Below are positions 3,300 through 10,968 of a stretch of 34,228 nucleotides of DNA, piece by piece. This DNA comes from Eubacteriales bacterium. Its GTDB lineage: Bacteria; Bacillota; Clostridia; Saccharofermentanales; DTU023. The stretch's first letter is position 1. Each line of letters begins with the position of its first letter. The notes below the pieces were generated by a model. It saw only the letters and a list, made by a program, of their open reading frames with translations. It was not told the DNA's origin and did not search any database. The stretch is taken from assembly GCA_028706195.1 (NCBI GenBank), contig JAQWBU010000006.1, positions 1 to 34,228 on the forward strand, given 5' to 3'. The position numbers and the translations under genes are program-made.

Positions 3300-3965
3300 A
3301 TGGCACAATCAATTAAGTACCGTTTTGACGAAGTTATGCTCCGCTATGTCAAAGAACTGAGAATTAAGACGACTGCGTTCGGCGGTTATGACAGGGATGA
3401 CGTCTATGAAAAGATTAAAGACCTGATCTCTGAAGCGCGCACTGTCTGTGAAGAAGTCTATGAAGAAGCAGTCAGTGAACTTCAAGACGAGACAGCGGCT
3501 TTGGACGCAGCTCACGAAACAGCAGCTTCAGATATCTCGCTTGATCAGGATCGGATTGATGGTCTTCTGCAGGAGATAGTAGAACTCGAAGCCAGGGTTG
3601 TTGAACTTGAAGCTGTTGAGAGCAAATTGAGTCAGGAAGTTAAAGAGCTTCAAGCTAAGCTTAATTATTTTGATGAGAATGATGAGAAGCTGGAGCGAGC
3701 TAATGAGATCCTGCGTGAAGCTCGTTTAGAGGCTGACAGAATTATTGTTGATGCCAAAGAGAAAGGCGAACAGGAAGTCTTATTGGGTCGTGCCAGAAGC
3801 AGGGCGGAATCAGAAGAGGCTCAAAAGGATCTGGAAGATTTGCGAAAGAAGAGCGAAAAGCTTCGCGAATACCTCAAGAGCGGCGCAGAGATGCAAAAAC
3901 AAATGCAGACCTTCGCTGAGTCTTTTGTTCTGGATGACGATTTAGGTCTGACCAGCAAAGAATAA
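3300..3965 (+). CDS. DivIVA-like coiled-coil protein
   Basis: N-terminal 'KTTAFGGYDRDDVYEKIKDL' resembles the DivIVA 'F..R.GYD..EVD.FL' signature, followed by long Glu/Lys/Leu-rich coiled coil. Confidence 0.7.
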   Translation: MAQSIKYRFDEVMLRYVKELRIKTTAFGGYDRDDVYEKIKDLISEARTVCEEVYEEAVSELQDETAALDAAHETAASDISLDQDRIDGLLQEIVELEARVVELEAVESKLSQEVKELQAKLNYFDENDEKLERANEILREARLEADRIIVDAKEKGEQEVLLGRARSRAESEEAQKDLEDLRKKSEKLREYLKSGAEMQKQMQTFAESFVLDDDLGLTSKE

Positions 3966-3984
3966 TTCTGTTTTTTGCCCGACG

Positions 3985-4025
3985 CATTGAGCCTCTTCAG
4001 GGCTCTTCAGCAAGCCGTTTTTTAA
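3985..4025. terminator. Possible intrinsic terminator between convergent genes
   Basis: GAGCC-tcttcag-GGCTC hairpin with T-rich stretch downstream, between DivIVA-like (+) and tpl-like (-) genes. Confidence 0.35.
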
Positions 4026-4052
4026 ACTTTAATTTTCACAGCTATATTTAGC

Positions 4053-5498
4053 TCACAGCGAGTCGCCGAAATCCGACCTGAAACGCGCGACTAGTTTTTC
4101 CTGCCAGTCAGAGACGGCTTCCAGTTCTCCTGTGAAGAAACGTAAAATCTTGGGTTCTCTCGTGAAACGAAGCCCTGCAATCAGCTCTCGGTTTTGCCAC
4201 AGCCAGTGTACACGGTCGATGCAGTATTTAATCTGACTCAAGGTGAAGACTCGACGGGGCACAGCCAGGCGGAGAAGCTCCATCGAGGCATGGGCTTCAC
4301 TGCCATCTGCATGGCGATCTTCACTCAGCGTACCTCTTTCCATACCACGGATACCGCCTGCGATGAATAACGCAGAAGCCAGTGCGGCTGCCGGATATTC
4401 ATCAGAAGCAATGTGGGGAACAAATTCCTTAGCATTCAGATGACAACCTAAACCGCCGGCAGGTGTAACTACCGGCACCCCCAGTTTTGTCAGTTCCTCG
4501 ACCATATAGCGAATGAATTCAGGGCCTTGAGAAATGACGGATTCATCCATGGACTCTTCGAGCCCTACAGTAATTGCAGCCATTTCCCGCACCGACATAC
4601 CGCCATAAGTTAAAAATCCCTCATTCAAAACGATCAACTCCTGAAGAGGGTTGACCAGAGGGCTTTCTCTTAAAGCTATACCGCCACCCCTGGCGAAACC
4701 GAATTTCCTGGCGGAAAAGTAGATAATGTCGCAGCAGTCAGCAATAGCTCTCATGATCTCCCGAACAGACATCTCGCGACAGTTTGTCTCTCTGCTTTTA
4801 ATAAAATATAAATTATCCTGAACTAATGATGCATCAAGGACTAAAGGCACGTCATGTTCGCGACAGATCCCGGAGCATTCCTGCAGGTTGGCCAGGGAGA
4901 ACGGCTGACCGCCAATTAAGTTAGTGCCTGCCTCCATGCGTACAAAGGGAATATTTCTCTCACTATTTTTCAAAAGTGTTCGCAGAGCATCGTTGTCCAT
5001 GTTTCCTTTAAATGGCTTATCGCTGGTGTACACTTCGCCTTCTGCACACAGCAACTCCAGTACTTCGCCGCCGCAGCGCACAATGTGCGCTCTGGTCGTT
5101 GTGAAGTGGTAGTTCATGGGAATGAGATCACCGGGCCTGACTAATAAGTCTGCCAGAACCTTCTCACAACCGCGACCCTGGTGGGCCGGCAAAAAGTGCT
5201 CCATGCCAAAGAGATCCTGGACTTTTGCCTCTAATTGGAAAAATGTCTCGCTACCGGCATAAGCATCATCCGCATCCATCATGGCAGACTGCTGCTTGTC
5301 ACTCATGGCATTGACGCCACTGTCCGTCAGCATGTCCAGGAAGACATCCCGGTTTTTCAATAAATACAGGTTATTATGTGCTTCTTGCAGTTTACTTAAC
5401 CTTTCTTCAACCGGAAGCAGCTCCAATTTCTGGACTATGCGCACCTTGTGACGCTCCAGAGGTATCATCTCTCCACTAAATAAACGAATTTCCTGCAT
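4053..5498 (-). CDS. tpl: Beta-eliminating lyase, tyrosine phenol-lyase-like (tryptophanase/TPL family)
   Basis: 'MLTDSGVNAMSDKQQSAMMDADDAYAGSETFFQLEAKVQDLFG' is close to TPL. TPL-type residues: 'FTTTR' (TnaA has FDTTQ), 'MERG' and 'LRFFT' near the C-terminus. The ORF track starts at TTG 5513; the ATG at 5498 behind GGAGG is more likely. Confidence 0.85.
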   Translation of the reverse strand: MQEIRLFSGEMIPLERHKVRIVQKLELLPVEERLSKLQEAHNNLYLLKNRDVFLDMLTDSGVNAMSDKQQSAMMDADDAYAGSETFFQLEAKVQDLFGMEHFLPAHQGRGCEKVLADLLVRPGDLIPMNYHFTTTRAHIVRCGGEVLELLCAEGEVYTSDKPFKGNMDNDALRTLLKNSERNIPFVRMEAGTNLIGGQPFSLANLQECSGICREHDVPLVLDASLVQDNLYFIKSRETNCREMSVREIMRAIADCCDIIYFSARKFGFARGGGIALRESPLVNPLQELIVLNEGFLTYGGMSVREMAAITVGLEESMDESVISQGPEFIRYMVEELTKLGVPVVTPAGGLGCHLNAKEFVPHIASDEYPAAALASALFIAGGIRGMERGTLSEDRHADGSEAHASMELLRLAVPRRVFTLSQIKYCIDRVHWLWQNRELIAGLRFTREPKILRFFTGELEAVSDWQEKLVARFRSDFGDSL

Positions 5499-5544
5499 GT
5501 CTCTTTCCTCCAAATATTAGTTTTGTCGATGGCCATGGCGGGAG

Positions 5545-5835
5545 GATCCGGAAAAAAGAAAAACGTCCATCCTGCTATGGCGCAAGAGGACGTCATGAGA
5601 CGTGTTACCACCTCTGTTCACTTTCAACTCACATTGAAAGCCTCGACAGGTTCTCCACACTGAACAGATTTCTGTGCTTTTAAACCTTAACGCTGTTACG
5701 GGCGCACCCGTCGTCTCCTACTCTTAGTTCAGGACGCTGCTCCGGAGATGTATTCGCTCTGCTTTGACTTAATGCCTCGCACCACCCGGCATCTCTCTGA
5801 AAGTCTCGATACAAAGTTACTTCTTCTCCATCACT
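5545..5835 (-). ncRNA. T-box leader RNA with UAC (tyrosine) specifier, upstream of tpl-like gene
   Basis: Reverse complement shows Stem I (GGAGAAGAAGUAACUUUG...GACUU UCAGAGAGAUGCCGGGUGGUGCGAGGCAUU AAGUC...CAAAG...GCGAAUACAUCUCC), specifier GAA-UAC-A at 5750-5752, T-box core AGAGGUGGUAACACG (5600-5616), and terminator ACGUCC...GGACGUUUUUCUUUUUU. Confidence 0.92.
5551..5596 (-). terminator. T-box-controlled intrinsic terminator
   Basis: Reverse complement 'gacgtcctcttgcgccatagcaggatggacgtttttctttttt': ACGTCC/GGACGT stem followed by a T-tract, directly 3' of the T-box core. Confidence 0.85.
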
Positions 5836-5851
5836 GCATTTGCTTGAAAGA

Positions 5852-5880
5852 AAGATATCACATGCAAAATTATTTGTAAA
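5852..5880 (-). promoter_or_regulatory. Candidate sigma-A promoter for the T-box/tpl transcript
   Basis: Minus strand -35 TTTACA (5875-5880), 17-nt spacer, -10 TATCTT (5852-5857), just upstream of Stem I. Confidence 0.5.
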
Positions 5881-5889
5881 GCGAAGTGT

Positions 5890-6231
5890 TTACTCAGCAT
5901 CCGGAGGGAAAAAGACACAGAGCCAGAGGCAGGGATCGGACGTGCGTGTCACCTTATGCCTGCGGCCTGCTTCCAAATGGAAAAAATCACCGCTGCTTAG
6001 AGCTATAGTGTGGCCGTGCTCGTCTGGAAAAGTGATTTCAGCTTCTCCGACCAGAACTATGACCCACTCGTCATCGTCCTGGTCATAAACCACACTGGTC
6101 TGACCCTGGGAAAGAATGCGAGTTATACGCACAGAGCTCTTGCTCAGCAAGTCTTCGTCCCGTTCAAAGCGGCTTGCATCCGGCAGTCTTTGGAATATAT
6201 TAGTTAATTGATCCTTATCCACGAAACCCAA
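5890..6231 (-). CDS. Cupin-domain protein
   Basis: 'SVVYDQDDDEWVIVLVGEAEITFPDEHGHTIALSSGDFFHLEAGRRHKV' is a small cupin beta-barrel signature. Confidence 0.85.
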   Translation of the reverse strand: MGFVDKDQLTNIFQRLPDASRFERDEDLLSKSSVRITRILSQGQTSVVYDQDDDEWVIVLVGEAEITFPDEHGHTIALSSGDFFHLEAGRRHKVTRTSDPCLWLCVFFPPDAE

Positions 6232-9930: not shown

Positions 9931-10968
9931 CTAAGACAGCAACTCACCCAACTTGTTTACAGCCAGCTCGATATCACTGCGGGTGATATCCTTGTGCGTG
10001 ACCCAGCGCCATTCCCCGTTTGTCTCCTGACCGTTAATGAGGATATCGTCCTTTGCCAGCAGCTCAGGAAGCTGGTTCAGCTGCTCTTCAGCCCTATCAA
10101 TTCTGAAAAAAACCATATTAATATCACGGCGTTCTGTCAGTACGGTTACCGAGTCGATTTCGCCTAATTTCTCTGCCAGATAGTCCGCGTTAAGGTGATC
10201 TTCCTTCAGGCGACGGGGCATCTCCTGAAGTGCCAGCAATGCAGGAGCAGCCAGGAAACCGGTCTGTCTCATGCCTCCGCCCAGCAGCTTACGCCACTTG
10301 CGGGCCCTTTTCACCAGATTGGCAGGACCTGCAAAAATGCTGCCCACCGGTGCACACAAAGCTTTTGAGAGACAGACATTGACGGTATCCGCATATTGCG
10401 TGATCTCTTTGACGTCAACACCAAGATAAGTCGCTGCATTGAACAGCCTGGCCCCATCCAAATGAACAGAGAGCCGGCGACGCCTGGATAGCTCGTAGAC
10501 TTCCTTCATCAAATGCAACGGTACAACCCTGCCATTGGACAATGCATTCTCAAGGCAAATCAAGCTTGTTTCGGGTTCATGTATATCTTCCGCGCGGATT
10601 GCAGCCTCAATCTTGTCCGGCTCAGGCAGATCCCCAGAATATTCAAGTGTTCTCATGCTGACGCCTGAAAGCACCGCAGCTGCTCCGACTTCGTGCACGA
10701 AAATATGAGCATTGGAGCCAAGAATAATCTCCTGTCCGCGTTGTGTGTGCACCAGCACGCCCAGCTGATTGCCCATCGTGCCACTGGGAACGAAGAGCGC
10801 AGCTTCCTTACCCAAAATCTCTGCGGCAAGCCTTTCCAGCTCATTGGTGGTCGGATCGTCACCATAGACATCATCGCCGACTACTGCTTCAAACATAGCC
10901 TGGCGCATCTCGGCTGTAGGATGGGTAACCGTGTCGCTTCTGAAATCAATTAATCCACGTTCATTCAT
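9931..10968 (-). CDS. ltaE: Low-specificity L-threonine aldolase
   Basis: '[70 protein letters not shown]', '[12 protein letters not shown]', '[12 protein letters not shown]'-type PLP region. Confidence 0.94.

Follow-up and report, generated by a model that had tools for sequence, protein, structure and literature searches.

A tyrosine-specific T-box leader, followed by its terminator, precedes a gene of the tyrosine phenol-lyase (TPL)/tryptophanase family in a 34,228-nucleotide contig stretch of a Eubacteriales draft genome (hereafter the window), and the same pairing recurs in many related genomes. The coupling marks an uncharacterised enzyme clade and, as sequence comparison shows, extends the Tyr T-box regulon in a way that is widely conserved. 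We favor a role of the enzyme in tyrosine supply over a catabolic one. The most far-reaching possibility, at a probability of roughly 0.35, is a TPL-derived enzyme that serves tyrosine synthesis in nature and would use phenol, or some other precursor from outside the shikimate pathway, to form L-tyrosine under the control of tRNA-Tyr starvation.

A complete tyrosine T-box upstream of a lyase-family gene

The elements of the regulated unit, all on the minus strand, are the following:

5852..5880, minus strand: promoter-like site TTTACA-17-TATCTT, its second hexamer preceded by TG (extended -10); consensus scan
5583..5843, minus strand: T-box leader RNA comprising Stem I, Stem II region, Stem III and antiterminator; RF00230
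5749..5755, minus strand: 3' side of the specifier loop, GAA-UAC-A; covariance-model alignment
5752-5750, minus strand: specifier codon UAC (Tyr); covariance-model alignment
5601..5615, minus strand: antiterminator core AGAGGUGGUAACACG; covariance-model alignment
5610-5607, minus strand: UGGU bulge, complementary to the 3' ACCA of tRNA-Tyr; tRNA-Tyr sequence
5548..5594, minus strand: intrinsic terminator hairpin and U-tract, mutually exclusive with the antiterminator; fold
5507..5511, minus strand: Shine-Dalgarno sequence GGAGG; read in the sequence
4053..5498, minus strand: gene for a PLP enzyme of 481 aa that belongs to a third TPL/tryptophanase clade; PF01212, NF009709

A first-pass annotation of this DNA had described a complete minus-strand Tyr T-box. 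Indeed, Rfam cmscan matched RF00230 at 5843-5583 (-) over the full model (1-219), with 117 bits against a gathering threshold of 93 (E 1.7e-25) and with UAC at the specifier position in the specifier loop. The window holds this one T-box, and no second one was found in the 1.67 Mb draft host genome. The second T-box of the genus is located before pheS (locus L084, contig C30 of genome G004, approximately 1327-2670); its absence from the draft host genome is probably due to incomplete assembly. The host tRNA-Tyr(GUA) gene ends in ...CCCCCACCA, i.e. it carries A73, so that the discriminator base pairs with the UGGU bulge, as had been anticipated.

The terminator hairpin (5594-5562) has a predicted free energy of -19.2 kcal/mol, which none of 200 shuffled sequences equalled; its 5' arm is also part of the antiterminator, whose fold is predicted at -10.6 kcal/mol. 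About 64 nt separate the end of the terminator stem from the start codon (ATG at 5498), and about 50 nt separate the end of the U-tract from it, a distance previously put at about 40 nt. The promoter-like site, recognized by its match to the consensus (9 of 12 positions), ends nine bases before the T-box, so that promoter, T-box, terminator, ribosome-binding site and gene look like a self-contained unit; the gene is apparently monocistronic. In T-box genes, uncharged cognate tRNA stabilises the antiterminator, and expression goes up.

The architecture from Stem I to the antiterminator, the UAC codon, the UGGU bulge matching A73 and the transcription terminator are those of the Tyr-class T-boxes, as exemplified by Bacillus subtilis tyrS; what differs is the target, here an enzyme of the TPL/tryptophanase family. 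The Tyr T-box targets listed in a 2008 survey are tyrS, the NhaC transporter, tyrosine biosynthesis genes and the phenylalanine hydroxylase of the Bacillus cereus group, with no lyase among them (PMC2494555). In the papers searched we found no report of T-box coupling to a third-clade lyase; one of them mentions both T-boxes and tyrosine phenol-lyase (PMC7461572).

The controlled gene falls in a third clade of the family

Membership of the family is clear: the 481-aa protein scores 160 bits with PF01212 (cut-off 27) and 568.8 bits with the subfamily model NF009709 (PRK13238; cut-off 285). However, it fails the TPL equivalog TIGR02618 (403.5 versus 720.7 bits) and both tryptophanase equivalogs (TIGR02617, 315 versus 826 bits; NF053783, 364 versus 750 bits), while sharing family and fold with tryptophanase (TnaA). 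NCBIfam scores the third-clade lyase genes as 'tryptophanase'. Among solved structures, TPLs come closest both in sequence (37-40% identity) and in predicted fold, and the model (mean pLDDT 91) superposes on TPL crystal structures with TM-scores of 0.87-0.90. In a maximum-likelihood tree, the 481-aa protein groups with relatives as distant as 48% identity, at 100/100 support, opposite TPL and tryptophanase when the root is placed at the midpoint. A true TPL exists in the same bacterial family as the host (locus L044 in genome G010, 892 bits with TIGR02618 against the cut-off of 720.7), and the second family member of the host itself (G000:C37) has a tryptophanase-type active site. The window also encodes a distant family relative of the lyase, a GntG-type PLP aldolase (9931-10968, minus strand; NF041359, 411.7 bits).

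Judged by these sequence criteria, the controlled gene is not a TPL orthologue and belongs to a third clade of the TPL/tryptophanase family. Thus, the initial assignment to the TPL family holds, whereas the name TPL proper does not. Likewise, the regulation had been called paradoxical: a UAC T-box does precede a TPL-family gene, but the sense of paradox depends on the name TPL, which strictly speaking does not fit.

Residues of the ring pocket are kept and residues around the cofactor are changed

Residues are numbered as in Citrobacter freundii TPL (EC 4.1.99.2), which the third-clade enzyme resembles in fold, at about 38-40% identity. All third-clade members keep S51, Y71, Q98, R100, F123, T124, N185, D214, K257, Y291, M379 and R404; T49 is kept as well, with Ser in a few members, and R381, F448 and F449 are kept across the clade except in two diverged tandem copies (see below). 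In TPL, K257 is the PLP lysine, Y71 donates the proton to the phenol leaving group, and T124, R381 and F448/F449 are the phenol-binding residues. Since the latter are retained, the pocket still looks suited to a 4-hydroxyphenyl ring. Nor does the 481-aa protein look like a tryptophanase: it lacks the tryptophanase-type residues (D, C, I/V and H at positions 124, 379, 381 and 448), which are represented by the host paralogue L077.

By contrast with TPL, the clade uniformly has Leu for R217, Arg for K256, Phe for M288 and Asp for E69, and Leu for H343 (Val in two members). The TPL cation site, E69/N262, is not kept, with D at 69 and mostly R or K at 262. It therefore looks, from the alignment, as if the cofactor surroundings had changed while the ring pocket was kept. 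As the R217L, K256R, H343L and E69D replacements are near PLP and the cation site, the classical TPL reaction is not assured in either direction, and they may leave room for a different tyrosine-yielding reaction.

The same replacements could be read as the mark of a new activity, directed at tyrosine itself or at a compound closely related to it, that helps when tyrosine or charged tRNA-Tyr is short and involves no phenol-lyase reaction in either direction; the candidates would be a D-tyrosine racemase, an aldolase, or a lyase for modified or analogue tyrosine. Positions 217, 256, 288, 343, 69 and 262 are indeed replaced in all third-clade members with the phenol site left in place, and the enzyme forms a separate, fully supported clade. 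However, Y71, K257, R100 and R404 are all kept, as would be expected were ring transfer to Cbeta still the reaction, and we consider a new activity rather improbable.

The T-box and lyase pairing recurs with three dissimilar leader types

Recurrence was assessed in 399 genomes drawn across the phylum, 59 nearer relatives and named records; the third clade is present in 44 of the 399. The pairing was counted for genes with at least 59% identity and readable upstream DNA (n=66). A T-box lies just upstream in 49 of these and is absent in 17, and its specifier is UAC in 46 cases and UGC in three, so that the survey proposed in the first-pass annotation does find related lyases with UAC T-boxes. 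Carriers include Haloplasma and the Mycoplasmatota zrk6. No T-box was found upstream of the tryptophanase-type paralogues, the 48-51% identity subgroup, the true TPL L044 or the two betaproteobacterial lyases, one from Rhodocyclus purpureus and one from a Betaproteobacteria MAG. Most lyases without a T-box, L008, L009 and L012 among them, were also scanned permissively, with no T-box detected near the lyase (L129 was scanned at the gathering threshold only).

Three sequence types can be told apart: a large type A, type B in seven genomes of families f69, f77 and f111, and the singular T-box of L039. Identity between types is at most 56%, no higher than with the T-boxes of unrelated synthetase genes, and in the enzyme tree the types occupy separate branches, interspersed with lyases that have no T-box. 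These dissimilar types on different branches suggest repeated recruitment of tyrosine control; the simplest reading of the sequences is that it became attached to the third-clade enzyme at least two to three times, although one T-box may instead have been replaced by another.

Such a distribution speaks against the view that the enzyme simply degrades tyrosine in the ordinary catabolic way and that its T-box, inherited or neutral, matters little to physiology. The family resemblance to TPL and the members without a T-box would suit that view; yet the T-box is kept across families and phyla, three unrelated sequence types carry the same codon, and the true TPL of the same bacterial family has none. 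We regard an ordinary catabolic lyase as very unlikely.

UGC specifiers and tandem copies

The three UGC specifiers belong to the first tandem copies in genomes G030 and G033 and to L120. The lyase is duplicated in tandem at L078 (G030, 3453-4895) and L037 (G033, 673-2115). The first copies have UGC for UAC together with F448 replaced by Ser and, in one of them, R381 by His; the second copies keep UAC and, where complete (G030), an intact pocket. In these lyases, drift seems to have affected regulation and active site in parallel, and the two diverged copies may be drifting. L120 (G272) combines a UGC specifier with an intact active site, and its congener L121 (G247) has UAC.

A switch to cysteine was considered for the UGC T-boxes and rejected, because the bulge is UGGU here too, a match for A73 but not for U73, the usual base in tRNA-Cys; a pattern search for tRNA-Cys found none. 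Note that UGC can still pair with the GUA anticodon through a middle G-U. We make no claim that these T-boxes respond to a different amino acid.

Carriers of the T-box are enriched in genomes lacking prephenate dehydrogenase

Five genomes of the host genus (85-87% complete) show no chorismate synthase and no prephenate dehydrogenase (tyrA), and the genus is thus probably unable to form tyrosine through the shikimate pathway. Across the phylum draw, tyrA is absent from 12 of 15 genomes having a lyase with a type-A T-box versus 2 of 15 having a lyase without one (Fisher p 0.0007 uncorrected for relatedness, about 0.04 when counted by family), and from 20 of 44 lyase-bearing genomes versus 67 of 355 others, a comparison not fully corrected for kinship. 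This concentration in tyrA-less genomes, the recurrence of the T-box and its absence from the true TPL and the tryptophanases make a catabolic role of the third-clade enzyme unlikely.

The enzyme does more than stand in for a missing tyrA, since type-B genomes mostly have tyrA and so do seven family or order relatives with type A (tyrA accompanies a T-box lyase in G005, G011, G021, G024, G027, G044 and G052). A clean tyrosine-only gap, i.e. chorismate synthase present and tyrA absent, was sought and rejected: G088, G121, G433, G379 and G334 also lack prephenate dehydratase, which gives the tested tyrA-less T-box genomes the appearance of general Phe/Tyr auxotrophs.

The enrichment also bears on a defensive role, in which a tyrosine analogue inhibiting tyrosyl-tRNA synthetase would raise uncharged tRNA-Tyr and thereby induce an enzyme that destroys the inhibitor. 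This logic suits T-box induction, as does a retained specificity pocket with altered chemistry, but it does not predict enrichment in tyrA-less genomes, and the broad conservation comes without linked resistance, export or biosynthetic genes. We consider defence very improbable, even more so than an ordinary catabolic lyase.

Tyrosine supply as the best explanation

If the leader behaves as T-boxes do, uncharged tRNA-Tyr would switch the third-clade enzyme on, and the enzyme would raise the tyrosine supply rather than destroy tyrosine. Destruction under T-box control would worsen starvation, and the coupling has been kept or rebuilt many times, which makes tyrosine supply the best reading. That the enzyme serves tyrosine supply of some kind appears probable, by a modest degree. 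Counted against it are the 17 orthologues without a T-box and the T-box genomes with tyrA.

TPL is a catabolic enzyme that is run backwards industrially for tyrosine and L-DOPA, making tyrosine from phenol, pyruvate and ammonia (PMC12058496). Since TPL chemistry is reversible and is used in this way, synthesis from phenol ranks first among the candidates: the likeliest individual reaction would be phenol + pyruvate + ammonium -> L-tyrosine, with phenol presumably scavenged in anaerobic, protein-rich habitats. We hold synthesis from phenol to be plausible, at slightly less than even odds; the next option would be another tyrosine-yielding reaction or a salvage on a 4-hydroxyphenyl substrate. 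The first-pass proposal that the enzyme may run in the synthetic direction or act on another substrate fits the repeated T-box recruitment, the enrichment in tyrA-less genomes, and true TPL and tryptophanases devoid of a T-box. The phenylalanine-4-hydroxylase of the B. cereus group is likewise a non-shikimate tyrosine-making enzyme under T-box control (PMC2494555), but it is unrelated and oxygen-dependent, whereas here a PLP enzyme is found in apparent anaerobes.

If tyrosine synthesis is indeed its role, the third clade would be the natural counterpart of the industrial TPL run backwards, with a regulation that says 'make tyrosine'. It would provide a tyrosine route outside the shikimate pathway for many bacteria that lack prephenate dehydrogenase and are supposed auxotrophs, with a bearing on auxotrophy predictions from genomes, and T-box codons would gain a tested use in correcting enzyme annotation.

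Gene neighbourhood

No neighbour gene points to phenol or tyrosine metabolism. Deriving a pathway from the neighbourhood was tried and abandoned, because the neighbours vary by genome (a beta-lactamase-fold protein, PPK2, MFS and ABC proteins); EF-G adjoins the family paralogue. In the window, a small cupin protein (5890-6231, minus strand) adjoins the T-box upstream and is common to two congeners (L003, L005) among the compared loci. A cobalamin riboswitch occurs within about 1 kb of the T-box-less third-clade lyase at three loci of genus g47 (L124, L128 and L129), on the strand opposite the lyase in L124 and L128. Finally, in a Fusobacteriia MAG, a selenocysteine tRNA gene (L017, 3691-3783) lies just upstream of a TPL/tryptophanase-family gene.
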